Assembly: GCF_014145395.1 (NCBI RefSeq)
Contig: NZ_JACHTE010000002.1
Coordinates: forward strand, 1-64,000
Reading direction: 5' to 3'
Source of the DNA: Marilutibacter penaei
GTDB lineage: Bacteria; Pseudomonadota; Gammaproteobacteria; Xanthomonadales; Xanthomonadaceae
Length of the DNA stretch: 64,000 bases
In this document: positions 14,405-46,806 of the stretch, in pieces
Position numbering within the stretch: the first letter of the stretch is position 1
How the letters are laid out: every line of letters begins with the position of its first letter
Made by a program: the position numbers and the translations under genes
Notes under the pieces: model-generated
Database searches by the model: none
Seen by the model: only the letters and a program-made list of their open reading frames with translations
Told to the model about the DNA's origin: nothing

Positions 14405-14787
14405 TGGCCCTGTGGATTGCGTGACACGCCGTAAACCCCCGCTTCGCGGGTCCGGCCCTCCGGCATAGCCTCCGGGCGTTCGGCTGCGCGCGAAGCGATG
14501 CTTCGCAAACGCGCTGCCTCACCCATGGGGGCTCGGGCGCGGCATCCATGCCGCGCACGGTCACGCGAACCCCAGACCCACCGTCTTCTGGACAATCCCC
14601 TGGCGCTTCCAAAAGCATCCAAAGCCCGGACGTCCACGGTCGCTGAAGGCGTCGGTCGACGGGCTGGGGGTTGCGGAGAGCAGCCCAAGGATGGGCTGCG
14701 ACCCGACTTAAAGACAGGACGTCGTCAGGAGGGCGTAGCAACCCCCAGCCCGGCGGGCGGCGACTCCGTCCGAAGCCGCCTCCACGT
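14405..14787 (-). repeat. Dispersed structured repeat, copy A (extended form)
   Basis: The whole 520-base gap 14302-14821 between convergent genes holds no gene; it contains the terminator and this element. Read on the minus strand it matches copy B (23.3-23.6 kb) nearly base for base over several blocks: the 92-nt core, a following block starting TCGACCGACGCCTTCAGCGA, and a module with the palindrome GCGCGGCATGGATGCCGCGC (here at 14537-14556). It also shares the final block ACGGCGTGTCACGC. Copy A is longer at its 3' end than copy B because of an insertion with its own short inverted repeats (GAAGC/GCTTC). Confidence 0.85.
14660..14752 (-). repeat. Core of repeat copy A: outer 15-nt arms and apical hairpin
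   Basis: Perfect inverted arms CGGGCTGGGGGTTGC (14660-14674) and GCAACCCCCAGCCCG (14738-14752) enclose an apical hairpin GCAGCCCA-AGGA-TGGGCTGC (14680-14699). Compared with copies B and C, the arm has C/G in place of A/T at one pair, and the apical stem has a wholly different but still complementary sequence. Confidence 0.9.
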
Positions 14788-14821
14788 AAAGGAGAGAAGT
14801 GATGGCCCCGCGCATATCGCG

Positions 14822-16018
14822 CTACGACGTCATCAACAGCACCAGCAAAGCGACGACCACGAACAGGCTGCTCACCACGCAGGCGGGGCGCCCCATGACC
14901 CACGGATACGACGCGCTCCAGCGGCGATTGGCCGGGTCGGCGAGCATCGGCGCCATCATCCGCTTCAGCTGCGTCATGTGCTGGTGGTTGACCGCGGCAA
15001 GGCCGGCGGCTGCGACCAGCAGCGTGAGCCACGTCTCCTTCAGGCTCAGCGCCACCATCAGTGCCAGCGACCAGACGATGCCGATGAAGCACATCAGCAG
15101 CACGAAGCGCCTGATCTCGCGGTGTTGCGCCGGCGAGCGCGCGAACCGCGCCAGGTACCACCAGGTGAAGCTCGAGCCCAGCGCGCCCGCCAGGACGCCC
15201 AGCAACAGCACCGGCAACACCTGCGACGTGCCCAGCCACTGCGACGCAACCATGCCGAGTGATCCGCCGGCGACGCCGCCCGAGGCGGTCACCGCACTGC
15301 CGCCCAGTTTGCCCGCGCCGCCCACCAGACCCGTGCCGACCACCGCCGCCGTGCCGACTGCCGGCGCCGACATCGCCAGCCCGCCGACCACCATCGCGGT
15401 GAAGGCGGCACCGGGTGCGCTCGTGCGGGCAAACGTGCCGAAGCGCTGCAGGAGTTCCTCGCGCACCGCCGCGCGGGCCCGCGACAGCCGCTTGCGGACG
15501 GCCGCGTCGGTCAGGCCGAGCAGGGCCGCGACCTGCTTCGACTGCTGGCCTTCGCGGTAATAGAGCAACAGGGTCTCGCGCGCGTCCTCGGGCAGCGCCG
15601 AAATGAGCTCCGCGGCGGCCGCTTCTTCCTCGGTCGCGCGCAGGCGCTCCTCGGGCGTGTCCGCACTGTCGGCGGCCATGCCGATGGCGAGTTCGGCGAC
15701 CTCGCCGGTCAGCGGGCGGTGGCGGGTCGCACGCAGGTGGTCGCGGGCGAGGTTGCGGGTGATCTGCCGCAGCCAGGGCAGGAAGCTCGCGTGGTTGCGC
15801 AGCCGGTCCAGGCCCTGCCAGGCCTTCAGGAAGGCTTCCTGCGCGATGTCCTCGCTGGTGGGTACGTCGCGCACGATCGCCAGCGCGATCGCGCTGACGC
15901 TGGACTGGCAGGCCTCGACGATGCGGCCATAGGCCGCGTGGTCGCCGCGCCGCGCGGCCGGGAGCTGGTCGCCGATCAGGCGTTCGATGTCGAAGGCGGG
16001 CAGGGCGGTGGCGTTCAT
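14822..16018 (-). CDS. ECF sigma factor with a C-terminal membrane domain
   Basis: 398 residues. Region 2 of an ECF sigma-70 factor lies at about 25-95 (SEDIAQEAFLKAWQGL, LPWLRQITRNLARDHLRATR) and region 4 at about 135-190 (LPEDARETLLLYYREGQQSK, then LGLTDAAVRKRLSRARAAVR). Normal ECF factors end near residue 190; here some 200 residues follow. They begin with a Gly/Ala/Val-rich stretch (205-255) and continue with about four transmembrane helices (266-288, 304-326, 330-344, 378-396). No separate anti-sigma gene is adjacent, so the membrane domain may hold the factor inactive until a signal or proteolysis releases it (inference). The gene ends in the convergent region with repeat copy A. Confidence 0.85.
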   Translation of the reverse strand: MNATALPAFDIERLIGDQLPAARRGDHAAYGRIVEACQSSVSAIALAIVRDVPTSEDIAQEAFLKAWQGLDRLRNHASFLPWLRQITRNLARDHLRATRHRPLTGEVAELAIGMAADSADTPEERLRATEEEAAAAELISALPEDARETLLLYYREGQQSKQVAALLGLTDAAVRKRLSRARAAVREELLQRFGTFARTSAPGAAFTAMVVGGLAMSAPAVGTAAVVGTGLVGGAGKLGGSAVTASGGVAGGSLGMVASQWLGTSQVLPVLLLGVLAGALGSSFTWWYLARFARSPAQHREIRRFVLLMCFIGIVWSLALMVALSLKETWLTLLVAAAGLAAVNHQHMTQLKRMMAPMLADPANRRWSASYPWVMGRPACVVSSLFVVVALLVLLMTS

Positions 16019-16102
16019 GTCGGGGTCCGGTCTCGCGCGATCAGGCGCATCCGTACCACTGACGCGCGGGCGTGCCGGATGTGACCACCGCGGCGCCGGG
16101 CT

Positions 16103-17008
16103 TCAGATCGACACGTCCCGGCTGACCCGTTCCACCTGCCAGCGGCCGTCGACCCGACGCAGTTCCAGCGTCCGGTAGGTGGCGAAGCTGCGGTGGTGGT
16201 AGGCCACGAAGTCGACCGCACCCGCGTCCGCGGAGGTCGGGCGGAACCAGGCCACGTCCACCATCAGCGCCGGCAGGCCGCTGGCGGCATGGGTGCTGCC
16301 CTCGGCCTCGTCGGCATTGCGCACGCAGTTCGACGCGGACACCAGCCGCAGCGCGCTGTCGGCCGGCAGGCCTGCCTGCAGCGACTGGATCAGCGCCGCC
16401 GGGGCGTCGCGGCCGTCGATCGACAGGCAGGCGATGTCGAGGCGCGCCTGGCCGAGTTCGTGCGCGAACACCGCTTCGGCGACCGGCAGGATCGTCGGCT
16501 GCGCGCTGCCGTCGAAGGGTGCTTGCGGCTCGGCCGGGAAGCCTTCGCTCGCCCGGTCCGGTGTCGGTGCCACGGGCAGGGCCGCCGGGGCATCGGTCGC
16601 CTGCGGGCGCTGGCGGACCATCTGCACCGCCATCACGCCGGCCGCGATCAGCAGGCCGACCAGCAGCGCGTACTTGATCCGCGCGATGCGCTGGCTACGC
16701 CGGTCCGCCTGCACCTGCGCCTCGTCCTGTTCGCGGAAGCTGGCGACGAAGCTGTCGCGGTGGCGGGTCGAGTCGATCAGACCAGCCTCGCGCAGGATCT
16801 CGCGGGCGCGCACCTGGTCCTCGGACTGGATGACCCACACCGCGGCCTGTTCGCCGGCATCGGCGCCGCCGCCATAGCTGAAGGTGCGGCGGCGGTTGCC
16901 GCGGTAGGAACGGCCGTTGGTGATCCGTACCTCGATGCCGTCGTCCTCGAGCAGCCGGGCGACCGCCTCGACGTTCTCCAGACGCGGACTGGTGAAGACC
17001 TGGCGCAT
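16103..17008 (-). CDS. DUF2007-containing single-pass membrane protein
   Basis: 301 residues. The N-terminus MRQVFTSPRLENVEAVARLL with GIEVRITNGRSYRG is the DUF2007 (putative signal-transducing) domain, ending near residue 85 with a helix like EDQVRAREILREAG. One transmembrane helix follows at about 115-133 (YALLVGLLIAAGVMAVQMV), then a Pro/Ala-rich linker and a second globular region of about 150 residues with two Cys (DIACLSIDG, ASNCVRN), probably periplasmic. Xanthomonas homologues are often labelled pathogenicity-like protein (from memory). The ATG overlaps the tesB stop (TGATG), so it is coupled to tesB. Function unknown. Confidence 0.7.
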   Translation of the reverse strand: MRQVFTSPRLENVEAVARLLEDDGIEVRITNGRSYRGNRRRTFSYGGGADAGEQAAVWVIQSEDQVRAREILREAGLIDSTRHRDSFVASFREQDEAQVQADRRSQRIARIKYALLVGLLIAAGVMAVQMVRQRPQATDAPAALPVAPTPDRASEGFPAEPQAPFDGSAQPTILPVAEAVFAHELGQARLDIACLSIDGRDAPAALIQSLQAGLPADSALRLVSASNCVRNADEAEGSTHAASGLPALMVDVAWFRPTSADAGAVDFVAYHHRSFATYRTLELRRVDGRWQVERVSRDVSI

Positions 17009-17904
17009 CAGTCTTTCGCCGGGACGTGCTGCGCGGCCGCCGCGTCGGCGACCACGCGGATCAGGCCTTCCTGCGCAGTGCTGGCGACCAGCCGGCCCTG
17101 CAGGTCGAAGATCTGCCCACGGGCCAGACCGCGCCCGGCCTGTGCGCTGGGGCTGTCGATCGAGTACAGCAGCCACTCGTCCGCGCGGAACGGACGGTGG
17201 AACCACAGCGCATGGTCGAGCGACGCCATCTGCACGTTCGGCTGGTAGTAGCTGATGCCATGCGGGAAGGTCGCGGTACCGAGCAGGTGGAAGTCCGAGG
17301 CGTAGGCCAGCAGCGCCCGGTGCAGTTCCGGTCCGTCGCCGACCTTCTCGGCGAGGCGGAACCAGACCTGCTGGTAGGGCGGGCGCTTGGGCGGGTTGAG
17401 TTCGTCCCTCGGATAGACGTGGCGGAACTCGAACGGGCCGCCGCGCGACAGCCAGCGCTGGATCTTGGTCGGCAGGGTCGCCATCACCTTCTCCGGCACC
17501 GGCGGCGCCGGGGCGATGTCCTCCGGCCGCGGCACCTCGGGTGCCGACAGCTGGTGCTCGGCGCCGCCTTCACCCTTCTGGAACGAGGCGGCGAGGAAGA
17601 AGATCGGCTGGCCGTGCTGGATCGCGGTGACCCGCCGCACCGAGAAGCTGCCGCCGTCGCGGGTGCGGTCGACCTGGTAGACGATCGGCGCGTTGATGTC
17701 GCCGGCCTTCAGGAAATACGCGTGCAGCGAGTGCGCCGCCCGGGCGTCCTTCATCGTCGCCTGCGCCGCCGAGAGCGCCTGGCCCAGCACCTGTCCGCCG
17801 AACACGTACTTGGTGCCGATGTCGCGGCTCTGGCCGCGGAACAGGTTGTCCTCGAGGCGTTCGAGCGACAGCAGTTCGATCAGTTCGGCGACGGGAGAGC
17901 TCAT
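17008..17904 (-). CDS. tesB: Acyl-CoA thioesterase II
   Basis: 298 residues with the tandem hot-dog fold of TesB. Signatures are ELLSLERLEDNLFRGQSRDI at the N-terminus, YVFGGQVLGQALSAAQATM, SLHAYFLKAGD, and the second half SDFHLLGTATFPHGI, MASLDHALWFHRPFRADEWL and GRGLARGQIFDLQGRLVAST. The catalytic triad of E. coli TesB (Asp, Ser/Thr, Gln) corresponds to the SLDHALWFH and ARGQIF positions. It hydrolyses medium- to long-chain acyl-CoA to free acid and CoA. The ATG at 17904 gives the family length. Confidence 0.93.
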   Translation of the reverse strand: MSSPVAELIELLSLERLEDNLFRGQSRDIGTKYVFGGQVLGQALSAAQATMKDARAAHSLHAYFLKAGDINAPIVYQVDRTRDGGSFSVRRVTAIQHGQPIFFLAASFQKGEGGAEHQLSAPEVPRPEDIAPAPPVPEKVMATLPTKIQRWLSRGGPFEFRHVYPRDELNPPKRPPYQQVWFRLAEKVGDGPELHRALLAYASDFHLLGTATFPHGISYYQPNVQMASLDHALWFHRPFRADEWLLYSIDSPSAQAGRGLARGQIFDLQGRLVASTAQEGLIRVVADAAAAQHVPAKD

Positions 17905-17960
17905 GCAGGCGGGGTGCGGCGGAAAAGGCGGGCCAGTGTAGCCCGGATGGCCGACGTGCT

Positions 17961-18527
17961 TCAGTCGCCCTGCCAGCGCCGCAGCGACGTCTTCGCCAGC
18001 ACCGCGTCCCATGGGAACAGCGGCCCCGGGTCGCGCTTGCGGCGCACCCGGCGCGTGGGGTCGTCGCTGGCCTCCACCTCGGTGGTGTCCAGGTCTTCGT
18101 GGCCGGCGATCAGGCGCAGCGCCGGCAGGACCCCGCACAGGTGCCCGAGCAACGCGTCCAGGCGTTCGAGCTGGGCGTCGGTGTAGGGCTCGTCCATCGC
18201 CTGGTGGCCGGCGGCCAGCCAGTCCGGGTAGCGCCCGGTGTTGACCAGTTCGATGCCGACCGAGCGCGGGTTGTAGCCGCGCGTGTGGTGGGCGGTGCGC
18301 GCCAGCGGCACCCATTGTTCGATCCGGCCGTCGCGGTCGATGTAGAAGTGCCCGCTGTTGCCGGTGCCGCTGTCCGGGTAGAGCACGCGTTCGCCGTACT
18401 CGCGCGCGGTGGCCAGGTCGGGCAGTTCGGTGCAGTGGATGACCACCAGGTCGATGGCCTCGTGAACGCGCGCCTGCAGCGCGGTTTCGTAGGGCAGGGG
18501 ACGGTGGACGAGGGGCAGGGCCGGCAT
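17961..18527 (-). CDS. N-acetylmuramoyl-L-alanine amidase, AmpD-like (Amidase_2)
   Basis: 188 residues without a signal peptide, so cytoplasmic. The zinc ligands can be placed at VVIHCTE (His 32), SVGIELVNTGR with the preceding HH pair of ARTAHHTRGYN, and the C-terminal DPGPLFPWD block that holds the third ligand in AmpD. The GHEDLD segment matches the conserved AmpD GHSDI-type motif. It should cleave the lactyl-amide bond of 1,6-anhydro-muropeptides during cell wall recycling. Whether it is the true AmpD regulating beta-lactamase or a paralogue cannot be decided here. It follows the tesB direction and is divergent from the MOSC gene. Confidence 0.82.
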   Translation of the reverse strand: MPALPLVHRPLPYETALQARVHEAIDLVVIHCTELPDLATAREYGERVLYPDSGTGNSGHFYIDRDGRIEQWVPLARTAHHTRGYNPRSVGIELVNTGRYPDWLAAGHQAMDEPYTDAQLERLDALLGHLCGVLPALRLIAGHEDLDTTEVEASDDPTRRVRRKRDPGPLFPWDAVLAKTSLRRWQGD

Positions 18528-18599
18528 GGGCCGGATGCTACCATTCGCCCCCGGCCGGACTGCGCGCGCTGCAGCCCGGCGACCCGCCCGGAGCCCGTG

Positions 18600-19133
18600 A
18601 TGACCCTGCCGCCCGCCGACTCCATGCTCGGCCAGCTGATGGCCCGCCTGCCGCGTGCCGGCCGGGTCGAATGGATCGGCCTGCGGCCCGCGCGCGACGT
18701 GCCGATGCAGGCGGTGGCAGTGGCCGACGCGACGGCCGGCGCCGGCCTGTCCGGCGACCGCTACGGCGGCGGCAGCGGCAAGCGCGGCGTCACTCTCATC
18801 CAGGCCGAGCACCTGCCGGCGATCGCCGCGCTGGCCGGACATGCCGACGTGGCCCCGGCCACCCTGCGCCGCAACCTCGTCGTGTCCGGCATCCCGCTGG
18901 CCGCGCTCAAGGGCCGACGCTTCCGCATTGGCGATGTCGTTTTGGAGGGCACCGAGGACTGCGATCCGTGTTCGCGCATGGAGTGCGCCCTCGGCCCCGG
19001 CGGCTTCAATGCCATGCGCGGCATGGGCGGTCTGTGCGCGCGCATCGTCGAAGGCGGCACGCTGGCGGTCGGTGCGCCGGTCGAGGCGCTGCCGGTCGAT
19101 GCTGAGGAAGTCGATGTGGAAGCGGGGCGCTGA
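18600..19133 (+). CDS. MOSC domain protein
   Basis: 177 residues. After a short helix (MLGQLMARLPRAGRVEWIGL), the MOSC fold shows as GLSGDRYGGGSGKRGVTLIQ, LRRNLVVSGIPLAALKGRRF, IGDVVLEGTEDCDPCSRME and GGLCARIVEGGTLAVGAPV. The Cys of the DCDPC motif is near the position of the molybdenum-cofactor or sulfur-carrying Cys in MOSC proteins. It is likely a sulfur-transfer or Moco-binding protein, substrate unknown (YiiM-related proteins reduce N-hydroxylated bases). The frame is open upstream, but the ATG at 18600 matches the domain. It begins the MOSC / hydrolase / rlmKL unit. Confidence 0.82.
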   Translation: MTLPPADSMLGQLMARLPRAGRVEWIGLRPARDVPMQAVAVADATAGAGLSGDRYGGGSGKRGVTLIQAEHLPAIAALAGHADVAPATLRRNLVVSGIPLAALKGRRFRIGDVVLEGTEDCDPCSRMECALGPGGFNAMRGMGGLCARIVEGGTLAVGAPVEALPVDAEEVDVEAGR

Positions 19134-19134
19134 C

Positions 19135-19673
19135 ATGCGCGGGCACTGCATCCTGTCCCACGGGTTCGAGAGCGGCCCGGACGCCACCAAGGTGACCGCG
19201 CTGGCCGAGGCCGCCGAACACCTCGGCTGGACCCACGACCGCCCCGACTACACCGACCTCGACGCGAAGCGCGAGGTCAGCGAGGTGGGCGACGTCGCCG
19301 CCCGCCTGGAGCGCCTGCTCGGCCTGGCCCGGGCCGCCGCCGCACGCGGGCCGCTGGTGCTGGCCGGTTCCAGCCTGGGTGCATGGATTTCCGGCCGCGT
19401 GTCGCTGCAGGTGCCGGTCGCCGGCCTGTTCCTGATGGCGCCGCCGGTAAGCATGGGTCGCGCGCCGGCGATCGACGCCGCCGACGTGCCGCTGTCGATC
19501 GTCCACGGCTGGCACGACGAACTGATCCCGGCCGCCGACGTCGTCGCCTGGGCGGCGCAGCGCAGCGCCCGCCTGCTGCTGGTCGACGACAGCCATCGCC
19601 TGGCGGCGCATGTCGACACCAGCGCCGGCGCCTTCGCCGCGCTGCTGCGTTCGCTGGGCCGCCGCGAGGACGC

Positions 19674-19677
<4 letters not shown>
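19135..19677 (+). CDS. Small alpha/beta hydrolase
   Basis: 180 residues. The N-terminal [20 protein letters not shown] resembles the oxyanion part of the fold. The nucleophile elbow is [12 protein letters not shown] (Ser 77-78 region), the acid is probably the Asp in [12 protein letters not shown], and the catalytic His is in [10 protein letters not shown]. The size and motif pattern match the YqiA/RBBP9-like small hydrolases. The substrate is unknown. It begins one base after the MOSC stop and its TGA overlaps the rlmKL ATG, so all three genes form one operon. Confidence 0.82.
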
Positions 19678-21857
<2,180 letters not shown>

Positions 21858-21872
21858 GGCCGGGTGCGGCGG

Positions 21873-22166
21873 GTTCGGCGCCCGGAGCGTCGAGGTCGGA
21901 ACGCGGAGCTGCAGGGTCGGGACCCCGGAGTGTCGAGGTCGGAGCTCGGGGCTTCAGGGTCGGGGCCCCGGAGTGTCGAGGTCGGAACCCGGAGCTTCAG
22001 GGTCGGGACCTCGGAACGTCGAGGTCGGAACCCGGGGCTTCAGGGTCGGGACCTCGGAAGGTCGAGGTCGGAACCCGGAGCTTCAGGGTCGGGGCCTCGG
22101 AACGTCGAGGTCGGAACCCGAAGCTTCAGGGTCGGGGCCTCGGAACGTCGAGGTTGGAACTCGACG
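21873..22166. repeat. 43-bp tandem repeat (minisatellite), about 6.5 units
   Basis: Units begin with GTCGAGGTCGGAAC at 21889, 21932, 21975, 22018, 22061 and 22104, with a partial at 22147, giving an exact 43-bp period. Each unit also contains GAGCTTCAGGGTCGGG and CCTCGGA. Units differ by one to five bases. 43 is not divisible by three, so this is not a coding repeat; all three frames are open only because of base composition. The GAGGTC and GACCTC halves of successive units are complementary, so the array can fold into serial hairpins. The gap 21858-22418 holds this array and the upstream region of the pirin gene. Confidence 0.93.
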
Positions 22167-22308
22167 CGACCTGCCGGGCTCCCGGCCTTTCCCGGACGAC
22201 GGAACGCCACGGAAACGGAGGCTGCGGGGGCGCCCGCCAGGCCTGCCGGCTCGCCCCTTCGCCCGCATGGGCCTTCATGTTGACCGCAATCTCCAGAAAT
22301 CGACGCGA

Positions 22309-22328
22309 TCGTTGCATCGATGGAACGA
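22309..22328 (+). promoter_or_regulatory. Imperfect palindrome upstream of the pirin gene
   Basis: TCGTTGCATCGATGGAACGA has complementary ends (TCGTT/AACGA) and a central ATCGAT. It lies about 90 bases before the pirin start and 24 bases after a TTGACC (22280-22285) that could be a -35 box. The shape would suit a LysR- or TetR-type operator. No regulator is encoded next to it, so this is a weak call. Confidence 0.3.
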
Positions 22329-22418
22329 ACTGCCGCTCCAGGCGCACGTCCGAGGCCCCGAAGAAGGCGCATCCTTGCCCCAACGCCACTCCCGGCGAAC
22401 GCATCTGGAGGCCACCCC

Positions 22419-23276
22419 ATGAACACCCCCGCGCCCCGCAATGCCCGCGTCAACCGCACGGTCCAGGGCCAGGCGGCCTCGGACGGTGCCGGCGTCCGCC
22501 TGACCCGCGTGATCGGCGGCCCGGCGCTGCCGGACCTCGATCCGTTCCTGCTGCTGGACGAGTTCGGCACCGACCGGCCCGAGGACTACCTGGCCGGCTT
22601 CCCGGACCATCCGCACCGCGGCTTCGAGACGGTCACCTACATGCTCGACGGCCGCATGCGCCACCGCGACAATCACGGCAACGAGGGCGTGCTGGTCCCC
22701 GGCAGCGTGCAGTGGATGACCGCCGGCCGTGGCCTGGTGCACTCGGAGATGCCCGAGCAGGAGGAGGGCCGCATGCGCGGTTTCCAGCTGTGGGTGAACC
22801 TGCCGGCGCGCGACAAGATGACGGCGCCGAAGTACCAGGAGTTCGCGCCCGAGCGGATCCCGCAGGTGGCGCCGGCGCCGGGCGTGTCGGTCAAGGTGAT
22901 CGCAGGCGAGGTCGACGGCACCGCCGGGCCGATCGTGCAGCCGGCGACCGATCCGCTGTATCTCGACATCGCGCTCGAGCCGGGCGTGGCCTGGACGCAC
23001 GACCTGCCGGAAGGGCACAGCGCGTTCGCGTATGCCTACGAGGGCGATGCGAACGTGGGCGAGGGCGACGAGGCCCGCGCGCTGCCGTCGCGGACGCTGG
23101 CGGTGCTGGGCGGCGGCGAGCGGCTGGTGCTGGCCGCCGGCGATGCGGGCGCGCGGCTGATCCTGGTGGCCGGGCGCCCGCTGCGCGAACCGGTGGCCCG
23201 CCACGGCCCGTTCGTGATGAACACGAAGCAGGAAATCATGCAGGCCTTCGTCGATTACCAGGAAGGCCGGTTCTGA
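22419..23276 (+). CDS. Pirin family protein (first of two)
   Basis: 285 residues, bicupin fold. The metal ligands of pirins are present: H64 and H66 in FPDHPHRGFETVTYMLDG, and H108 and E110 in MTAGRGLVHSEMPEQ. The second cupin follows with GVSVKVIAGEVDGTAGPI and DIALEPGVAWTHDLPEGHSA. Some bacterial pirins are quercetin dioxygenases and others modulate metabolism; which applies here cannot be told. The ATG at 22419 has a TGGAG ribosome site; upstream in-frame codons encode an Arg/Pro-rich stretch that is not conserved-looking. A second, clearly different pirin is encoded at 25.2-26.1 kb. Confidence 0.9.
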   Translation: MNTPAPRNARVNRTVQGQAASDGAGVRLTRVIGGPALPDLDPFLLLDEFGTDRPEDYLAGFPDHPHRGFETVTYMLDGRMRHRDNHGNEGVLVPGSVQWMTAGRGLVHSEMPEQEEGRMRGFQLWVNLPARDKMTAPKYQEFAPERIPQVAPAPGVSVKVIAGEVDGTAGPIVQPATDPLYLDIALEPGVAWTHDLPEGHSAFAYAYEGDANVGEGDEARALPSRTLAVLGGGERLVLAAGDAGARLILVAGRPLREPVARHGPFVMNTKQEIMQAFVDYQEGRF

Positions 23277-23304
23277 AGTCGGGGGGCGACGCTTTCGGCA
23301 GTTG

Positions 23305-23600
23305 AGGGTTGATCGCTTCGGATGGAGGCGCCGCCGGCCGGGATGGGGGTTGCTGCGCCCTCCTGACGACGTCCTGTCTTCAAGTCGGGTCGCCGGACGT
23401 CCTGTCCGGCTCTCCGCAACCCCCATCCCGTCGATCGGCGCCTTCAGCGACCGTGGGGGTCCAGGCTTCGGGTGCTTTTTTGAAAGCGCGAGCCTGGTTG
23501 CCTAGAGGGGGTGGCTCAGGGACTTGCGTGACCGTGCGCGGCATGGATGCCGCGCCCGAGCCTCCAGGGACGGATTCACGGCGTGTCACGCGAGATCCTG
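23305..23600 (+). repeat. Dispersed structured repeat, copy B (extended form)
   Basis: This fills most of the 424-base gap 23277-23700 between the convergent pirin and aqpZ genes; no gene is seen in the gap. It holds the 92-nt core (23339-23430), the shared middle block (CGCCTTCAGCGACCGTGG), and the palindrome GCGCGGCATGGATGCCGCGC at 23536-23555 preceded by GCGTGACCGT, as in copy A. The end block CACGGCGTGTCACGCG near 23578-23593 is also shared. Direction is opposite to copy A. Confidence 0.87.
23339..23430 (+). repeat. Core of repeat copy B: outer 15-nt arms and apical hairpin
   Basis: Perfect arms CGGGATGGGGGTTGC (23339-23353) and GCAACCCCCATCCCG (23416-23430) enclose a 7-bp apical hairpin GCCGGAC-GTCCT-GTCCGGC (23392-23410). 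The word GACGTCCTGTC occurs twice inside the core. Confidence 0.92.
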
Positions 23601-23649
23601 GGGCACCCCCTCTTTCCGCGTTCTTCACCGCAGACGCAGCATCACCCAC

Positions 23650-23679
23650 AAAAAAGGCCGCACCCGAGGATGCGGCCTT
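23650..23679 (-). terminator. Intrinsic terminator of aqpZ
   Basis: On the minus strand, 22 bases after the aqpZ stop, a 9-bp stem AAGGCCGCA/TGCGGCCTT (23654-23679, 8-base loop) is followed by a run of T (AAAAA on the plus strand at 23650-23655). Confidence 0.88.
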
Positions 23680-23700
23680 CGTGTATCACCGAGAAAAGGC

Positions 23701-24435
23701 TCAGCCGTGTCCGGTGATCTCCGGGCGCTCCGGGCCGATCCACTTGTAGAGCATGCCGCCGATCAGGCCGCCGAGGATCGGTGCGACCCAGAACAGCCAC
23801 AGCTGCGAGATCGCCCCCGAGCCGGCGAACAGGGCCACGCCGGTCGAGCGTGCCGGGTTCACCGAGGTGTTGGTCACCGGGATGCTGATCAGGTGGATCA
23901 GGGTCAGCGCCAGGCCGATCGCGATGGGCGCGAAGCCCGCCGGCGCGCGGCTGTGGGTGGCGCCCATGATCACCACCAGGAACATCGCCGTCAGCACCAC
24001 CTCGCACAGGAACGCCGCCGCCGCCGAGTAGCCGCCGGGGGACAGGTCGCCGAAGCCGTTGCTGGCGAAGTTGCCGGCCGAGGACGGGTCCGACGCGAAG
24101 GCCGGCGACCCGCTGGCGATCTGCCACAGGATGAAGCCGGCGAACAGGCCGCCCAGCACCTGCGCGATCACGTAGGGCGCCAGGTCGCGGGCCGGGAAGC
24201 GCCCGCCGGCCCACAGGCCGAAGCTCACCGCCGGGTTGAAGTGGCCGCCGGAGATGTGGCCGAACGCATAGGCGCCGGTCAGCACGGTCAGGCCGAAGGC
24301 GAAGGACACGCCGAGGAAGGCGATGCCCAGTGGATTGCCGTCACCGCCGAAGTTGGCGGCCAGCACGGCGCTGCCGCAACCGCCGAGCACCAGCCAGAAC
24401 GTGCCGATGAACTCGGCCGCGAGTCGCTTGATCAT
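23701..24435 (-). CDS. aqpZ: Aquaporin Z
   Basis: 244 residues with six transmembrane helices and two half-helices. Both NPA boxes are present: [14 protein letters not shown] (residues ~63) and [15 protein letters not shown] (residues ~190). The residues around them (His in SGGH; Arg after the second [13 protein letters not shown] near the N-terminus) match water-specific AqpZ rather than glycerol facilitators. It carries water across the inner membrane in osmotic adjustment. The ATG at 24435 has a GGAGGG ribosome site; the upstream in-frame ATG adds an unlikely 11 residues. It stands as a single gene with its own terminator. Confidence 0.94.
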
Positions 24436-24553
24436 GGAACCCTCCCCGGTCATTGGATTGAATGCCACCGGGCACGGCCCGGGGCGCGTTCAAGGTGCAG
24501 TGGGGAACGTTGCGGCGAGGTGAAGGACGGCGGAGCGTGGCCGTGCGCGCACG

Positions 24554-24582: not shown

Positions 24583-24595
24583 CGAAAGGTCGTGC

Positions 24596-35350: not shown

Positions 35351-35370
35351 TTTGCTCGCCCGCGCAATAG

Positions 35371-37788: not shown

Positions 37789-37820
37789 GGACCGCCTGGC
37801 CCCGGGCCGACGGACGGTCG

Positions 37821-37849
37821 TTGCAGCGGCGCGGGCGCTGACCTAGATT
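37821..37849 (+). promoter_or_regulatory. Probable promoter of the subtilase gene
   Basis: TTGCAG (37821-37826) and TAGATT (37844-37849) are separated by exactly 17 bases. The resulting leader of about 145 bases before the start contains a short inverted repeat around CCGTGGGCACCAGTGGCCCGCGG. Predicted only from consensus. Confidence 0.45.
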
Positions 37850-38000
37850 TGCGACATCGCGCACGCTTCGGCGCGAGGTCCCCGCATGTGAATGGACGCG
37901 GTGGCAGATGGACAGGGGAGAGGCGACAGCAGTCGTAACCATCTCTGCCGTGGGCACCAGTGGCCCGCGGTGATCCGTCCGCATCATGAGGGGAGTCCAG

Positions 38001-41282: not shown

Positions 41283-41328
41283 CGCCGTGGGGCCGCGGGC
41301 CTTGCCCGCCGCCCCGGTTCCAGGCATG

Positions 41329-41353
41329 CGGGGCGCCCCAGGGCGCCCCGTTT
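41329..41353 (+). terminator. Terminator-like hairpin after the subtilase gene
   Basis: A 9-bp perfect stem CGGGGCGCC-CCAG-GGCGCCCCG (41329-41350) followed by TTT. The U-run is short but the stem is very stable. It separates the protease gene from the rpsP promoter. Confidence 0.7.
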
Positions 41354-41388
41354 GCGTAGCTACGGTTCAGTTTCGGGCTGCGCGCTGA

Positions 41389-41417
41389 TTCCGTTCGGCC
41401 GCGGGCTGGACTATACT
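41389..41417 (+). promoter_or_regulatory. Promoter of the rpsP-rimM-trmD-rplS operon
   Basis: A good -10, TATACT (41412-41417), lies 17 bases after TTCCGT (41389-41394), a partial -35. The predicted start of transcription is about 43 bases before the rpsP ATG. Confidence 0.6.
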
Positions 41418-41465
41418 TGCCGGCTTACCCCGCCATCCTGGCGGCTGGGCAACAAAGGAAACAGC

Positions 41466-41720
41466 ATGGTCAAGATCCGTCTGGCGCGCGGTGGCGCCAA
41501 GAAGCGTCCGTTCTACCACGTCGTCGTCACCGACAGCCGCAATGCCCGCGATGGTCGCAACATCGAGCGCGTCGGCTATTACAACCCGGTTGCGGTCGGG
41601 GGCGAGAAGCCGGTCGAGCTGAACGTCGAGCGCGTCAAGCACTGGATCGACAACGGCGCGCAGCTGACCGACAAGGTCGCGGTGCTGTACAAGGACGCGG
41701 TCAAGGCCGCCGCGGCCTGA
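41466..41720 (+). CDS. rpsP: Ribosomal protein bS16
   Basis: 84 residues, typical length. Sequence [20 protein letters not shown] with [20 protein letters not shown] is unmistakable. It binds 16S rRNA early in 30S assembly. First gene of the classical rpsP-rimM-trmD-rplS operon; rimM begins 44 bases later. An AAAGGAAAC ribosome site lies just before the ATG. Confidence 0.98.
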
Positions 41721-41764
41721 TCCGCCGGGCCGCGCCTGCGCGGCCCGCCTGCACGCCTCCGCAC

Positions 41765-42280
41765 ATGAGCGAACAAGGGCGCCGCATCCTGTTGGGCAGG
41801 GTGCTCGGCGCCTTTGGCTTGCGTGGGGAAGTCAAGTTCGAGTCCTGGACGGAGCCGCGTTCGGCGCTGTTCCGCTACCAGCCCTGGATCCTGCGTTTCC
41901 CCGACGGATCCGAGCGTGAGCTGCGCGGCGCACGGGGGCGCGAGAGCGGGAAGTACCTGATCGGCCACATGCCCGACGTGCTCGACCGCGACGCCGCCGA
42001 AGCGCTGCACGGCACCGAGATCCATGTCCCGCGGGACGCGCTCCCCCCGGCGAAGCCCGGCGAGTACTACTGGGTCGACCTGGAGGGTCTTCGCGTGGTG
42101 AACGCGGAAGGCACGGTGCTTGGCGTGGTGTCGCACCTGTTCGCCACGGGCGCGAACGACGTGATGGTGGTCCGCGACGAGGCGCGCGAGCGCATGATCC
42201 CGTTCGTCCAGCCCCGGTTCGTCACGGGCGTCGACTTCGAGTCGGGCACCGTCAGCGTCGACTGGGATCCGGATTTCTAG
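41765..42280 (+). CDS. rimM: Ribosome maturation factor RimM
   Basis: 171 residues. The N-terminal RimM domain begins [20 protein letters not shown] and the C-terminal PRC barrel has [20 protein letters not shown] with the ending [20 protein letters not shown]. It helps 16S rRNA processing of the 30S head and binds uS19. Second gene of the operon; trmD starts nine bases later. Confidence 0.97.
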
Positions 42281-42289
42281 GCCCGCGTC

Positions 42290-43081
42290 ATGCGTATCGA
42301 CGTCGTCAGCCTGTTCCCTGAATTCATCGCTCAGTGCGCGGCCTTTGGCGTGACCGGTCGCGCGATCGAGCGCGGGCTGTTGACGCTGGAAGGCTGGAAC
42401 CCGCGTGACCATGCCGAAGGCAATTACCGGCGCGTGGACGATCGTCCGTTCGGCGGCGGTCCGGGCATGGTGATGCTCATCGATCCGCTGAGGGCCTGCC
42501 TGCGCGAGGTCCGTGCCGCGGATCCGCGCCCCGCACGCGTGGTCTATATGTCGCCCCAGGGCGCGCCCCTGACCCAGCGCAAGGCGCGCGAGCTGGCCGC
42601 CAGCGATCGCCTGGTGTTGCTGTGCGGGCGCTACGAAGGCGTGGACGAGCGCCTGCTGCGCGCCGAAGTCGACGAGGAACTGTCGATCGGCGACTACGTC
42701 CTGTCAGGCGGTGAGCTGGCCGCGGCGGTCGTGGTCGACACCGTCGCGCGCCTGCAGGACGGGGCCTTGAACGATGCCGAATCCGCGGTCCAGGACAGTT
42801 TCGAGGACGGCTTGCTCGATTGCCCGCACTACACGCGACCCGTGGCCCATGCGCTCGGCGACGTGCCCGGCGTGTTGTTGTCCGGCAACCATGCCGAGAT
42901 CGCCCGCTGGCGTCGCATGCAGCAGTTGGGCCGGACCTGGTCCCGCCGCCCGGACCTGATCGACGAGCGCGCGCTGTCGCCAGCGGACCGGAAGCTGCTC
43001 GACGCCTGGCGGGCGGGTGAGGACGGCGAACAGCCGCTGCCGGACGGCCGTGCCGGGATGCCGCCTGAACAGGACGCCTGA
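42290..43081 (+). CDS. trmD: tRNA (guanine-N1)-methyltransferase TrmD
   Basis: 263 residues. The SPOUT trefoil knot shows in [16 protein letters not shown] and [20 protein letters not shown], with the substrate-binding GGGPGMVM near residue 60 and the C-terminal [20 protein letters not shown]. It makes m1G37 in tRNAs reading CNN/GGN, preventing frameshifts. Third gene of the operon. The C-terminal 20 residues ([20 protein letters not shown]) are longer than in E. coli. Confidence 0.97.
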
Positions 43082-43085
43082 CGGC

Positions 43086-43115
43086 TGGCATTGGCTTCAG
43101 CAATGCCGCTATAAT
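43086..43115 (+). promoter_or_regulatory. Internal promoter of rplS
   Basis: A perfect TATAAT (43110-43115) follows the trmD stop by 28 bases; TGGCAT (43086-43091) 18 bases upstream is a weak -35. It would give rplS a separate transcript with a leader of about 105 bases, and explains the 147-base gap before rplS. Confidence 0.6.
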
Positions 43116-43228
43116 GCGCGGCTTAGCTCCATCCATGCCATGACGCGGGTCCACGTGCACTCGCGCATACAAATCGCCACCGGGCCACGACCCGGGGCCC
43201 AGAAAAGCGACATCAACAGGCCAAGACC

Positions 43229-43603
43229 ATGACTCTCAACACGCTGCTCCAGGAATTCGAAGCCGGACAGGCCCAGCGCGAGCTGCCGCCCTTCGGCCCC
43301 GGCGATACCGTCGTCGTCAACGTGAAGGTGAAGGAAGGCAACCGCGAGCGCGTCCAGGCCTATGAAGGCGTGGTCATCGCGCGCAAGAACGCCGGCCTGA
43401 ACTCCTCCTTCACCGTGCGCAAGATCTCGCACGGCTACGGTGTCGAGCGCGTGTTCCAGAACCACAGCCCGATCATCGACTCGGTGCAGGTGAAGCGCCG
43501 CGGCAAGGTCCGCGCCGGCAAGCTGTACTACCTGCGTGGCCTGGAAGGCAAGAAGGCGCGCATCAAGGAAGACCTGGCGGCTTACGCGAAGAACAAGCAG
43601 TAA
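43229..43603 (+). CDS. rplS: Ribosomal protein bL19
   Basis: 124 residues. Sequence [20 protein letters not shown] with [20 protein letters not shown] and [18 protein letters not shown] identifies bL19, which lies at the 30S/50S interface. Last gene of the operon. The long leader and its own promoter suggest that it is made at a rate different from trmD, as is known in E. coli. Confidence 0.98.
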
Positions 43604-43628
43604 GCGCCGCGTCTCCGGCGATTCACGC

Positions 43629-43655
43629 GAACGGCCGCCCCAGGGGCGGCCGTTC
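43629..43655 (+). terminator. Terminator-like hairpin after rplS
   Basis: An 11-bp perfect stem GAACGGCCGCC/GGCGGCCGTTC (43629-43655) with a five-base loop starts 26 bases after the rplS stop. The T-rich tail is poor (TTCTGCGTTGG), so it may act with Rho or only protect the 3' end. Confidence 0.6.
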
Positions 43656-43697
43656 TGCGTTGGGGGCGATAATGCCCCGACACGGGCAGGCAGGTGG

Positions 43698-44108
43698 ATG
43701 GACGAGACGAAGGACAATCCGGTGGGTGGCGTGCGCATCGACCTGTGGCTGTGGGCGGCCCGGTTCTTCAAGACCCGCGCGCTGGCACGACAGGCGATCG
43801 AGAACGGCAAGGTCGAGGTGGCCGGGCAACGGCCCAAGCCCTCGCGCACGGTCCGCGTGGGCGATCCGATGAAGATCGAGCGAGGCCACGAAACGTTCGA
43901 AGTCGAGGTGCTGGCCCTCAGCGACACGCGGGGGCCGGCCAGCGTCGCGCGCACGCTGTACCGCGAGGGCGAGGCCTCGGCGCGCGCGCGCGAGGAGGCC
44001 CGTGCACTGCGCGCCGCGGCCAGTGCCGGCTACAGGGCGCCGGAAACCCGGCCCGACAAGCGCGCCCGGCGATTGATCCGCGCGTTGGGCGACATCGACG
44101 CCAGTTGA
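43698..44108 (+). CDS. hslR: Heat shock protein 15 (ribosome-associated S4-domain protein)
   Basis: 136 residues. The S4 RNA-binding domain is RIDLWLWAARFFKTRALARQ followed by AIENGKVEVAGQRPKPSRTV and VGDPMKIE. The C-terminal half is Arg/Ala-rich and helical (EARALRAAASAGYRAPETRP, then RARRLIRAL), as in Hsp15. It binds 50S subunits with nascent chain-tRNA after premature dissociation and helps recycle them. The ATG at 43698 has an AGGTGG ribosome site. Confidence 0.9.
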   Translation: MDETKDNPVGGVRIDLWLWAARFFKTRALARQAIENGKVEVAGQRPKPSRTVRVGDPMKIERGHETFEVEVLALSDTRGPASVARTLYREGEASARAREEARALRAAASAGYRAPETRPDKRARRLIRALGDIDAS

Positions 44109-44114
44109 CCGGCG

Positions 44115-44732
44115 TCAGCGACCGCCGAAGATCGAGCTGCCCAGGCGCATCAGGTCGTTGACATCCAGGTCGCCGTCACCGTCCTGGTCCAGCACGGCAC
44201 CGAGCAGGCCGCCCCCGAGGCTGTCCTGCCGGATGCGCTGGCTTTCCTCGCCAAGCGCGGTGCCGAGGGACGCCGGCGTGGGCTGCAGCGGCGAGGTGCC
44301 GGCCGGGGCGGGCGTCGACGAGAACATGCGCTTGGCCAGGTAGGCCATCACCAGCGGCGCCAGCATTTTCAGGAGCTGGCCCATGCGGTCATTGTCGAGG
44401 CCGGTCGCGGCCCCCAGCCCGCGCACGGCGTTGCCCTGCTGGCCTCCCAGCACATGCCCGAGGATCCCCGCGCCCTGGCCGCCGCCGCCGAGGACGGCAC
44501 CCAGCAGTCCGCCGAGGTCGGTGCCGGCGTGGTCCCGCTGTAGCGCGCCGAAGAGGGCTTCTGCGCCCTGGGGCTGGCTGGCGTTCCGGCCCAGCGCACC
44601 GACCAGTAGCGGCAAGGCGGCGCTGATCGCATCCTCCGCCTGGTCTTCGGGCAGGCCGAGTTGCCGGCTGATGTTCGCGAGGGGCGCGCCCTGCAACTGG
44701 CTGAGCATGTCCCGGGTCAGGGGAGTGGACAT
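44115..44732 (-). CDS. DUF937 family protein with a C-terminal calcium-type loop
   Basis: 205 residues. The DUF937 core has repeated helices with Gly-rich segments: ISRQLGLPEDQAEDAISAAL, LLVGALGRNAS, LGGLLGAVLGGGGQGAGILG and HVLGGQQGNAVRGLGAATGL, with a final MGQLLKMLAPLVMAYLAKRM. The last 20 residues contain DQDGDGDLDVND, a perfect D-x-D-x-D-x EF-hand/dockerin-like calcium loop, followed by LMRLGSSIFGGR. The protein has no signal peptide. DUF937 function is unknown. It is convergent with hslR, six bases between stops. Confidence 0.75.
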   Translation of the reverse strand: MSTPLTRDMLSQLQGAPLANISRQLGLPEDQAEDAISAALPLLVGALGRNASQPQGAEALFGALQRDHAGTDLGGLLGAVLGGGGQGAGILGHVLGGQQGNAVRGLGAATGLDNDRMGQLLKMLAPLVMAYLAKRMFSSTPAPAGTSPLQPTPASLGTALGEESQRIRQDSLGGGLLGAVLDQDGDGDLDVNDLMRLGSSIFGGR

Positions 44733-44802
44733 GGCGGCATCCTGTTCGACGGGTGGAACGCCATGCTAGCGCGAGGATGTTCCGGTCCCGTGGAGGTCCC
44801 CG

Positions 44803-45285
44803 TCAGGCTTCGTCGTTCAGGTCGACGAGGACAGGCAATTCGGTGTTGCGGTGGAAGCCGAAGATCAGCTGCGTGTGGATGTGCGCAACCTCGTCGCGCT
44901 CGGTGAACGCCGTGAGGGCCAGTTCACGCAGGTGGTGGCTGTCGCGTACCCCGACATGGACGAGGAAGTCATCCGCGCCGGCGAGGTGGTAGAAGGCCAG
45001 CACCTCGGGCAGGCCCTGGAGGTGACGCAGGAAGCCGTCGACCAGGGTCCGCGAGTGGCGCGCCAGCCGCACTGCCACCATGGCCTGCAGGCCAATGCCA
45101 ATCGCGGCCGGTTCGATCTCGGCGTGGTAGCCCTGGATGACCCGCGCCTCATGCAGGCGGCGAATGCGCTCCAGGGCCGTCGAAGGCGCCACCCCGGTCT
45201 TTTCCGCGAGGGTCTTGTTCGGCAGCCGCGCATGCTTCCGCAGCAGGCGCAGGAGGGCGAAGTCCGTTCGGTCGATCCTCGGCAT
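44803..45285 (-). CDS. Lrp/AsnC-family transcriptional regulator
   Basis: 160 residues. The N-terminal HTH is FALLRLLRKHARLPNKTLAE then KTGVAPSTALERIRRLHEAR, and the RAM ligand-binding domain follows with MVAVRLARHSRTLVDGFLRH, VLAFYHLAGADDFLVHVGVR. The likely ligand is an amino acid. It is divergent from the cystathionine/methionine lyase-like gene with only 90 bases between starts, so this regulator probably controls that gene, in the manner of MdeR and mdeA in Pseudomonas (inference). The start MPRIDRTD is preferred over the upstream MMRLIEF. Confidence 0.9.
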   Translation of the reverse strand: MPRIDRTDFALLRLLRKHARLPNKTLAEKTGVAPSTALERIRRLHEARVIQGYHAEIEPAAIGIGLQAMVAVRLARHSRTLVDGFLRHLQGLPEVLAFYHLAGADDFLVHVGVRDSHHLRELALTAFTERDEVAHIHTQLIFGFHRNTELPVLVDLNDEA

Positions 45286-45375
45286 TGGGCAGCTTGCTCG
45301 AATAGTGTTCGGAATGAACTCTATCAGTCGCATCATGTTCTAGGGTTGAGCGCAACTCTGATGGAAGCGCTCGCC

Positions 45376-46569
45376 ATGCCCCGTTTCGATACCGATGTCG
45401 TCCATGCCGGCCGCGATGATCTCGCCGCGCTTGGCGTGCATGCGCCGCCGATCGACCTGTCCACGACCTATCCGGTCCACGACCTGGAGGCGGGGACGGC
45501 CAGTTTCGATGCGCTCGTGGGCGGGGAGGCCAGCGCCGCCAATCCGATCTACGCGCGCCTGCACAACCCGACGGTGGCGCGTGTCGAACAGGCGCTCGCG
45601 ACGTTGGAAGGCACGGAGGCCTGCGTGGCTTTCGCGTCCGGGATGGCCGCGCTTACCGCCGTGCTGATGGCCCGGCGCGCGCACGGCGGCCACGTGCTGG
45701 TGGTCCGCCCGCTGTATGGCACCTCCGACCACCTGCTGGCCAGCGGCCTGTGTGGCATGGAGGCGGAATTCGTCGATGCGGACGAGATCGCCGGGCGGCG
45801 GCGTCCGGACACGGCCCTGGTCATCATCGAAACGCCGGCCAATCCGACGCTGGACCTGGTCGACATCCGTGCCGCCGTGGAGGCCTCCGGCGGCGTGCCG
45901 GTGCTGGTCGATTCCACTTTCGCGACCCCGGTATTGCAGAACCCCGCGGCGTTCGGCGCGCGCTACGTGCTGCACAGCGCGACCAAGTTCCTCGGCGGGC
46001 ACGGGGACGTCATCGCCGGAGTGGTCTGTTGCGCCGACGAGGATGCAAAGCCGCTGCGCACGGTGCGGGCGGCGACCGGAGGACTGCTGCATCCGCTCGC
46101 CGCCTACTTGTTGCACCGGGGCCTGCCGACGCTGGCGTTGCGGGTGGAGCGAGCGCAGGCGAACGCGGAGAGCATCGCCCGGCGGCTGGCGGCACATCCA
46201 GGGGTGGCGCGTGTGTTCCATCCCGGCCTCGGTACCGTCCGCAATGCCGGCCTGTGCCGAAGCCAGATGCGGGGAGCGGGCTGTCTGGTGGCGTTCGAGC
46301 TGGCCGACGGCCACGCTGCGGCGGCAGCGGTGATGCGTGCGGTGCGATTGATCACGCCGGCAGTGAGCCTGGGGTCGGTGGACAGCCTGATCCAGCATCC
46401 CGCAGGCCTGACCCATCGCGTGGTGAGTCCCGCCGACCAGCAGGCGCACGGGATCACGCCGGGGCTGATGCGGATGTCGGTCGGCATCGAGCATGTCGAG
46501 GATGTGTGGGCCGACCTCGAGCAGGCGCTGGCGCAGGCGTCGTCGGTCCGGGAACGGGACGCCGCCTGA
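45376..46569 (+). CDS. PLP-dependent trans-sulfuration enzyme (cystathionine gamma-lyase / methionine gamma-lyase family)
   Basis: 397 residues, Cys/Met metabolism PLP family. Lys 204 in LHSATKFLGGHGDVIAG forms the Schiff base, and Y59/R61 of NPIYARLHNPT bind PLP phosphate from the neighbour subunit. Y114 is conserved, but the position of the reactive Cys116 of methionine gamma-lyase is Thr (LYGTSDHLL), which argues for a cystathionine or broader sulfur amino-acid lyase. The C-terminal ITPGLMRMSVGIEHVEDVWA is typical. Start at 45376 has GGAAG upstream; an ATG at 45361 is the alternative. The Lrp gene is divergent. Product assignment between gamma-lyase and gamma-synthase is not certain. Confidence 0.83.
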   Translation: MPRFDTDVVHAGRDDLAALGVHAPPIDLSTTYPVHDLEAGTASFDALVGGEASAANPIYARLHNPTVARVEQALATLEGTEACVAFASGMAALTAVLMARRAHGGHVLVVRPLYGTSDHLLASGLCGMEAEFVDADEIAGRRRPDTALVIIETPANPTLDLVDIRAAVEASGGVPVLVDSTFATPVLQNPAAFGARYVLHSATKFLGGHGDVIAGVVCCADEDAKPLRTVRAATGGLLHPLAAYLLHRGLPTLALRVERAQANAESIARRLAAHPGVARVFHPGLGTVRNAGLCRSQMRGAGCLVAFELADGHAAAAAVMRAVRLITPAVSLGSVDSLIQHPAGLTHRVVSPADQQAHGITPGLMRMSVGIEHVEDVWADLEQALAQASSVRERDAA

Positions 46570-46608
46570 TGCCTGGCGGCGTGGTTTCGCTGGCTTGCCC
46601 TCACGCTG

Positions 46609-46706
46609 TGAGGCCGGCTTCGGGAGGGCCGGGTTCGGGTGTGCCGGCTTCGGGTGTGCCGGCTTCGAGTGGGGCGGCTTCGGGTGGGGCGGCTTCGGGT
46701 GGGGCG
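46609..46706. repeat. 15-bp tandem repeat next to repeat copy C
   Basis: About six imperfect units of the type GGGGCGGCTTCGGGT occur in a row between the lyase stop and the repeat core. The unit equals the conserved left flank of the dispersed element (GGCGGCTTCGG in copies A and C). The frame is open through the array only because of the composition; nothing suggests a protein. Confidence 0.85.
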
Positions 46707-46714
46707 CCGCCCGC

Positions 46715-46806
46715 CGGGATGGGGGTGGCTCCGCCCTCCTGGCGACGTCCTGTCTTCAAGTCGGGTCGCCGGGCGTCCTGCCCGGCTCTCCGCCACCCCC
46801 ATCCCG
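46715..46806 (+). repeat. Core of repeat copy C: outer 15-nt arms and apical hairpin
   Basis: Perfect arms CGGGATGGGGGTGGC (46715-46729) and GCCACCCCCATCCCG (46792-46806) surround a 7-bp apical hairpin GCCGGGC-GTCCT-GCCCGGC (46768-46786). Relative to copy B the arms have a compensated T-A to G-C change and the apical stem a compensated A-T to G-C change. Copy C lacks the palindrome module of A and B. Together with the tandem array and a terminator it accounts for the 478-base gap 46570-47047, in which I see no gene. Confidence 0.92.

Follow-up and report, generated by a model that had tools for sequence, protein, structure and literature searches.

What are the folded palindromes that lie scattered between the genes of Marilutibacter penaei, and what keeps their two arms complementary from copy to copy? 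The question is raised by a stretch of 64,000 nucleotides (nt) of this gammaproteobacterium (assembly GCF_014145395.1, contig NZ_JACHTE010000002.1, positions 1 to 64,000 of the forward strand; hereafter the window), in which a preliminary description, made from the sequence alone, had noted three copies of a repeat whose fold seemed to be under selection. We report here that these copies belong to one of two families of dispersed modules, A and B, and that a one-strand-constrained, co-varying element with paired loops of the CsrA/RsmA type is well supported. That A and B represent two kinds of mobile-like RNA module bound by CsrA/RsmA is the reading we favor, with a probability of about one half. 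The earlier observation is confirmed, and its interpretation is partly supported.

Results

Modules A and B share a branched fold with co-varying stems

The three cores first described (14660-14752 on the minus strand, 23339-23430 and 46715-46806 on the plus strand) were found at those positions and on those strands. Each has perfect 15-nt arms (CGGGCTGGGGGTTGC, CGGGATGGGGGTTGC and CGGGATGGGGGTGGC, each with its exact complement), and the base pairs listed for the arms and the apical stem do change jointly across copies. The inner string GACGTCCTGTCTTNAAGTCGGGTCGC occurs three times with no mismatches, the copies differing solely at its one N, and no occurrence with up to three mismatches was found in 100 shuffles. 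This inner stretch had been called conserved and unpaired; the conservation holds, while the stretch contains GAC-GTCCT-GTC, a small hairpin with a co-varying middle pair (AU in 20, GC in 4 and UA in 2 of 26 A copies). The 92-nt core is likewise real and falls short of the full extent of the repeat, since elements 1 and 2 are homologous over about 250-300 nt; each of these units consists of an A module, a linker that holds a small hairpin, and a palindromic B module, the last being curtailed in element 1.

We give A modules on the strand whose loops read ANGGAY, of which the cores above are the complements. They lie at 14647..14776 (+; element 1), 23315..23443 (-; element 2) and 46692..46819 (-; element 3, without a B partner), and score 152.2, 140.2 and 125.4 bits, respectively, with covariance model R1. 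On the ANGGAY strand, the A fold comprises a basal stem P1 of 21 scored pairs, hairpins P2 and P3 of 7 and 3 pairs and an extra helix of 3 pairs; in element 2, P3 (GAC-AGGAC-GTC) occupies 23368..23378 (-) and P2 (GCCGGAC-AGGAC-GTCCGGC) 23392..23410 (-). Covariation was measured as pair counts and a score, with shuffle and slide controls. The proposed selection on the fold is borne out in 26 A copies from four genomes, in which 98.2% of stem cells are paired, 17 of 34 pairs show two-sided changes and the score reaches 0.334. Shuffled alignments average 0.125, with none of 500 equalling the observed value, and displacing partners by 1-3 columns lowers the score to 0.080 or less. The fold of each of the three A copies in the window is also better, on either strand, than that of any of 200 shuffles, with z values of -4.98 (14645-14776), -6.76 (23315-23445) and -7.40 (46703-46817); in this measure the ANGGAY strand leads in elements 2 and 3 and trails slightly in element 1.

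A is frequently coupled to B, and the two are alike in having a branched fold, in which a long basal stem carries a pair of hairpins with ANGGAY or AGGAY loops. The B module of element 2 (23504..23613, +; model R2, 110.9 bits; fold z -5.94 for 23505-23622) has 28-bp P1 arms and a two-hairpin core, in which the P2 loop with its closing pair, CATGGATG, lies at 23542..23549 (+) and the P3 hairpin, TCC-AGGGAC-GGA, at 23563..23574 (+); the linker to A, with the small hairpin GCTTTT..GAAAGC, spans 23444..23503 and is assigned to neither strand. The partial B of element 1 (14523..14588, -; inverted pair I4) keeps the 5' arm and the P2 hairpin, with other sequence in place of the 3' half; rows L004 and L009 part after GAGCCCCCATGGGT. 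Among 22 aligned B copies, 97.8% of the cells of 44 pairs are paired, 34 of the 44 show two-sided changes, and the covariation score is 0.661 against 0.179 for shuffled alignments (0 of 500 as high) and at most 0.146 for slid versions. The sequences of the 28-bp P1 arms diverge widely among copies with complementarity kept. Both junction strands, GAGCC and TTYACGGCGT, are conserved, and the GCC/GGC helix below P3 is invariant and so is uninformative on its own pairing.

Some loci carry variants of these modules. At L012 and L014 (~1500-1850), B is replaced by a palindromic module, GTCCGGCGC..GCGCCGGAC followed by GGGTGGGCCATGGATGGCCCACCC, also with a CATGGATG loop, which is perhaps a third module type. 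At L010, L017 and L027, the interior of A is swapped for other GC-rich palindromes.

One strand is constrained

Palindromy at the DNA level predicts equal numbers of G.T and A.C mismatches, whereas G.T is in large excess on the ANGGAY strand. In the B P1 stem, the G.T:A.C ratio is 38:1 in 22 elements from M. penaei and related genomes (binomial p 1.5e-10) and 145:27 in 109 elements from other genomes, among the matches listed (p 1e-20; scoring is symmetric, and the set leaves out 17 weak elements, duplicates and elements too close to a contig end). In the A stems of 26 copies it is 33:4 (p 1e-6). By gene context, with a stricter cut-off and again among the matches listed, B gives 19:1 in sense, 34:9 in antisense, 25:5 in convergent and 18:0 in divergent positions, 29:6 at contig edges and 9:2 inside called open reading frames (ORFs). 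These ratios indicate that the ANGGAY strand itself folds; most simply, one strand would be selected to fold as RNA. For A, the constrained strand is the opposite of the one originally written.

The paired loops match the form of the CsrA/RsmA site

The CsrA site is known from the consensus RUACARGGAUGU, obtained by systematic evolution of ligands by exponential enrichment (SELEX), from the ANGGAN hexaloop and from the CsrB repeats, which hold CAGGA(U/A/C)G within loops (PMC7652899; this and the papers below are cited for the sections consulted). The predicted loops of A and B match this published form. In the 22 aligned B copies (alignment A4), the P3 loop reads A-N-GGA-Y in 21 and AAGGAG in the remaining one, giving A-N-GGA-N in 22/22, and the P2 loop reads ATGGAT in 20, AAGGAT in 1 and ATGGAC in 1, so that GGA is present in both loops of all 22. 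A loops read CANGGAN or CAGGAN, and GGA is present in 22 of 26 copies at P2 and in 22 of 26 at P3; the A P3 loop of element 2 with its closing pair, CAGGACG, is like the CsrB repeats.

Among the matches listed in other genomes (132), the N of the B P3 loop is T in 60, G in 51, A in 11 and C in 10, and the P3 stem is swapped between CCC/GGG (59), TAC/GTA (45) and TCC/GGA (22). The P3 GGA belonged to the B search pattern and the P2 loop did not; a crude hairpin finder recovered P2 with GGA in 112 of 128 of these matches, 4 being too short to score. UACARGGAUGU, the SELEX consensus minus its first letter, is found in 11 of the 132 P3 hairpins listed. The genome encodes CsrA (PF02599, 92 bits) at C9:64425-64580 (+), 425 nt to the right of the window. 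Binding of A and B RNA by RsmA/CsrA is likely on this evidence.

Copy number and taxonomic spread

Far from three copies only, the M. penaei genome (G000; 3.17 Mb, 16 contigs) holds 20 A matches by DNA search, of which 2 span at most 65 nt; a combined A and B DNA query gives 44. A covariance-model search, as suggested in the preliminary description, reaches beyond the DNA query, which detected A in 4 of 40 relatives: at E <=1e-4, model R1 matches 45 of 198 family genomes, M. penaei among them, spread over 18 of 54 genera. With weak opposite-strand echoes counted, B model R2 gave 35 matches in M. penaei, 72 in G005 and 12 in G003, and none in G001, G002, G004 and G006, so that, within the genus, 3 of the 7 genomes are positive.

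A pattern scan for B across contigs of 84,980 species returned at least 132 matches on at least 120 stretches, and the taxa among the matches listed (80 titles) are all gammaproteobacterial or labelled just Proteobacteria. In six genomes picked because the scan had matched them, a B string with up to three mismatches, on both strands, was counted 273 times in Xanthomonas hortorum, 249 in Xanthomonas sp. LMG 31884, 181 in Methylomicrobium sp. wino1, 83 in Stenotrophomonas maltophilia D457, 30 in Arenimonas daejeonensis and 6 in a Cellvibrionaceae bacterium; the reversed pattern was counted at most once per strand in each. Phage records yielded no match to the 74-nt B core and 20,395 E. coli records none to one Sodalis B query, which among plasmids matched solely in 13 Pantoea records (H1-H13) of 530-587 kb. 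No annotated feature lies beneath these B-like Pantoea matches. Inspection by eye of S. maltophilia D457 (L247-L260) revealed a GGAAACTGTC-like string ahead of most of the B copies displayed, with GCTTTTGCTTTTG-like runs close to several of them.

Arrangement and gene context

Divergent pairing unites A and B better than sequence likeness does. Among 32 B and 18 A sites of the M. penaei genome, listed by hand, neighboring modules less than 450 nt apart are divergent by their ANGGAY strands in 14 of 16 cases, convergent in none and in triplets in 2, and A and B are interchangeable within the divergent pairs. Close pairs in Arenimonas are divergent in 10 of 10 cases, with a spacing of 287-299 nt in 8.

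Element 1 lies between the convergent genes 13570-14301(+) and 14822-16018(-), element 2 between the convergent genes 22320-23276(+) and 23701-24468(-), and element 3 downstream of 44851-46569(+), its right neighbor being called + in one run and - in another. Genes were called with a crude home-made caller, and of 27 units in the genome 5 retained calls that overlap. Of 25 units with both neighbors called, 13 lie in convergent gaps (the doubtful element 3 included) and 2 in divergent ones, compared with 7 and 8, respectively, of 29 background gaps in the window. For B in other genomes, 94 of the 132 matches listed could be classed, leaving out 28 at contig edges and 10 inside ORFs: 34 are antisense and co-directional, 24 convergent, 18 sense and 18 divergent. 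Gene 3' ends are thus favored in M. penaei, and the sense orientation is not favored elsewhere; a reading of the modules as plain sense parts of 3' untranslated regions (UTRs) finds no support in these orientation counts.

Adjoining element 2, a terminator-like hairpin, AAAAAAGGCCGCACCCGAGGATGCGGCCTTCG, was seen by eye at 23650..23681 (no strand assigned); an automatic terminator scan of the element 2 region found none. In several congeners, similar GC hairpins are visible by eye in the gap between this pair of genes. Two further repeats were noted in this part of the window. Seven direct copies in register, with a 43-nt spacing, occupy 21828-22214 between genes 19383-21857(+) and 22320-23276(+). 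Degenerate repeats at 13741-14216, inside gene 13570-14301(+), encode D-x-N-x-D-G-like stretches, which we presume to resemble calcium-binding EF-hand-like motifs.

Signs of mobility

A and B have the appearance of a dispersed, mobile-like element family. The genes flanking element 2 are adjacent in 6 of 6 congeners, some of which have a small additional ORF in the gap, and the element is missing in all six; a target duplication is unreadable at this site, where the gap is unalignable with the congeners. Only one of eight A copies of G003, G005 and G009 has a flank common to any of 17 M. penaei loci compared, and copies are mosaic. The repeat had earlier been set apart from a decaying transposon: the absence of decay stands, while the rarely shared A flanks and the site empty in all congeners are like those of mobile DNA. 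In Methylomicrobium sp. wino1 (L227-L246), TATACC...GGTATA terminal inverted repeats surround several B copies, in the manner of a miniature transposon (by eye). An unrelated palindrome, again by eye, replaces part of P2 in some B copies of this genome. A single Y1_Tnp gene was found in M. penaei, and its 3.3-kb locus has no BLAST match (E 1e-3) to the window or to the A and B loci compared.

Relation to known RNAs and repeats

At the gathering score, Rfam gave no match in the window, cores included, and its CsrB/CsrC and RsmX/Y/Z families, compared within the window only, gave none; microRNA and small nucleolar RNA families from permissive scans were rejected as mere fits to long GC hairpins. 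The closest candidate is TwoAYGGAY (RF01731), which has been proposed, as a hypothesis, to be a CsrA-binding RNA (PMC4333381) and is named in tables of PMC2864571 and PMC11701678. Its one stem bears two AYGGAY-type hairpin loops, a form that B resembles, and one M. penaei B copy scores 44.3 against its cut-off of 43. The B P2 loop follows the TwoAYGGAY form in 21 of 22 copies (ATGGAT or ATGGAC), whereas the N of P3 is Y in just 10 of 22. With stricter filters, by which the M. penaei match was missed as well, none of 60 family genomes exceeded the TwoAYGGAY cut-off, and 13 of the 60 gave sub-cut-off matches at E <=0.01. In 12 scanned loci it matched no B copy at E <=10, nor, in the 5 of these that bear A, any A copy. 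Conserved junctions, a variable 28-bp P1, a high copy number and divergent pairing set B apart from this family.

Ysr224 (RF02770), a small RNA (sRNA) of Yersinia, is aligned over its full model by the complement of B, with visible sequence likeness and a best score of 36.9 bits; all 28 matches in the M. penaei genome fall below the 70-bit cut-off, and it is the complement of the selected B strand that matches (seen for L026 and for element 2). RsmU (sRX061) of Xanthomonas campestris is a 3'-UTR RNA with several GGA motifs that binds RsmA by electrophoretic mobility shift assay and co-immunoprecipitation and lies 25 bp downstream of a comEA homologue (PMC7694677). Located by this description, the region downstream of comEA in four Xanthomonas genomes contains GGACAGGATGTCC, a GGAC-AGGAU-GUCC hairpin akin to the A and B hairpins. 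RsmU itself was rejected as a B element, since no B core occurs at the comEA loci of these four genomes, and it is a single locus for which the sections consulted describe no repeat character (PMC7694677), in contrast to the dispersed A and B. CsrB titrates CsrA by repeated GGA in hairpin loops (PMC7652899), and CsrC and RsmX/Y/Z (names as in PMC4333381) likewise titrate CsrA/RsmA; these are dedicated sRNAs with many sites each, whereas a single A or B module carries two GGA hairpins and a genome holds many modules.

REP/BIME/REPIN, ERIC, Correia and CIR repeats are dispersed intergenic palindromes, and REPs are often dimeric and near gene 3' ends (PMC3733652, PMC2229807). A and B differ in their branched structure of 110-130 nt, their one-strand constraint and their CsrA-type loops, which the consulted sections of those two papers do not mention for such repeats. 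A REP/RAYT (REPIN) origin was rejected, as no RAYT gene lies beside A or B and the modules measure 110-130 nt against a palindrome of 20-40 bp. The B P3 region may be reminiscent of ERIC primer sequences. The statement that the repeat has no published name holds for A, for which none was found in the literature searched; for B, one copy reaches the TwoAYGGAY cut-off. A search with sequence strings returned no title on a genomic repeat among the matches listed. Within the literature searched, A thus appears to be new and B to overlap a known candidate family at its margin. The abundance and divergent pairing of B were not met in the literature consulted on related systems.

Discussion

Both the binding of the modules' RNA by RsmA/CsrA and their transcription are inferred here from sequence. 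In the reading that we favor, each module would be expressed from one strand, and its basal stem P1 would present P2 and P3 with their GGA loops about 20-30 nt apart, a spacing that would suit both binding faces of one CsrA/RsmA dimer. The modules would be transcribed in part through read-through from adjoining genes, and from either side, because the pairs point apart. RsmA/CsrA could then be bound by module RNA. The copies might jointly serve as a decoy, or each might offer a binding site of local effect, analogous to RsmU in Xanthomonas, and the modules may spread as small non-autonomous mobile elements.

Several observations weigh against this account. CGA replaces GGA in 4 of 26 A copies at P2 and in 4 of 26 at P3, and RsmU mutated at all four GGA motifs still binds RsmA and keeps its effect (PMC7694677). 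Most SELEX ligands have at most 4 contiguous pairs (PMC7652899), compared with the very stable P1 and P2 of the modules. The opposite strand has a nearly equal folding energy, and a strand-specific hairpin of single-stranded DNA could yield an identical G.T signal. Transcription also meets difficulties: the sense 3' UTR is not preferred (34 antisense versus 18 sense, among the matches listed), the excess of G.T in antisense (34:9) and divergent (18:0) positions argues that read-through from one neighbor is not the sole source of RNA, and no sigma-70-like promoter was found in the element 2 region (23270-23710).

A structured RNA that acts without CsrA would account for part of these data. The modules could be ERIC- or REP-like repeats flanking gene 3' ends, which protect or cut transcripts by way of RNase III, RNase E or a barrier to 3' exonucleases, while some other protein, or no protein at all, would bind their loops. 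Their position near gene 3' ends in M. penaei (13 of 25 units in convergent gaps against 7 of 29 in the window) would fit, as would the orientation-dependent effect reported for ERIC in Yersinia on mRNA stability (PMC2229807). It leaves unexplained, however, why the A-N-GGA-Y loop is retained, with only N free, over a rewritten stem, and why a sense bias is missing, and we regard it as a serious candidate with the odds against it. We think it rather improbable that the constraint instead acts on DNA, single-stranded hairpins being the transposase-recognized ends of a REP/REPIN- or IS200-like unit and the divergent pair the mobile unit itself. G.T pairs are tolerated in DNA hairpins also, and the near-constant spacing of the divergent pairs (10 of 10 in Arenimonas, 8 of them at 287-299 nt), the sharp element ends with the empty site in congeners and the TATACC...GGTATA repeats around several Methylomicrobium B copies would all be expected of such a unit. 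Yet the sole Y1 transposase gene found has neither A nor B in its 3.3-kb locus, the loops suit an RNA-binding protein, and unrelated P1 arms stay complementary across copies, which would require prolonged selection on every copy.

The scattered and patchy occurrence of the modules (within the genus, 3 of the 7 genomes match the B model) and their mosaic copies could also suggest a plain miniature transposon in decay, with a fold that has no role. This is very improbable, as it is already contradicted by the counts: about 98% of stem cells remain paired despite heavy divergence, and the wobble asymmetry is 38:1.

If RsmA/CsrA does bind the modules, a further and tentative proposal, on which we would not wager, is that they form a distributed RsmA/CsrA sponge, in which dozens to hundreds of mobile modules in outward-pointing pairs, in many gammaproteobacteria, tune a global regulator by their copy number. 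Classical Rsm sRNAs are not known from xanthomonads, and in groups such as this one the sponge could replace them.

In summary, the GGA-loop RNAs that control CsrA/RsmA are known so far as a few dedicated sRNA genes. Should dozens to hundreds of evolving copies per genome indeed be selected for presenting such paired loops, ordinary-looking intergenic palindromes would constitute a large regulatory layer, and one could follow at individual copies how mobile repeats are retained as RNA. The TwoAYGGAY family, for its part, would gain a gammaproteobacterial context and a testable role.

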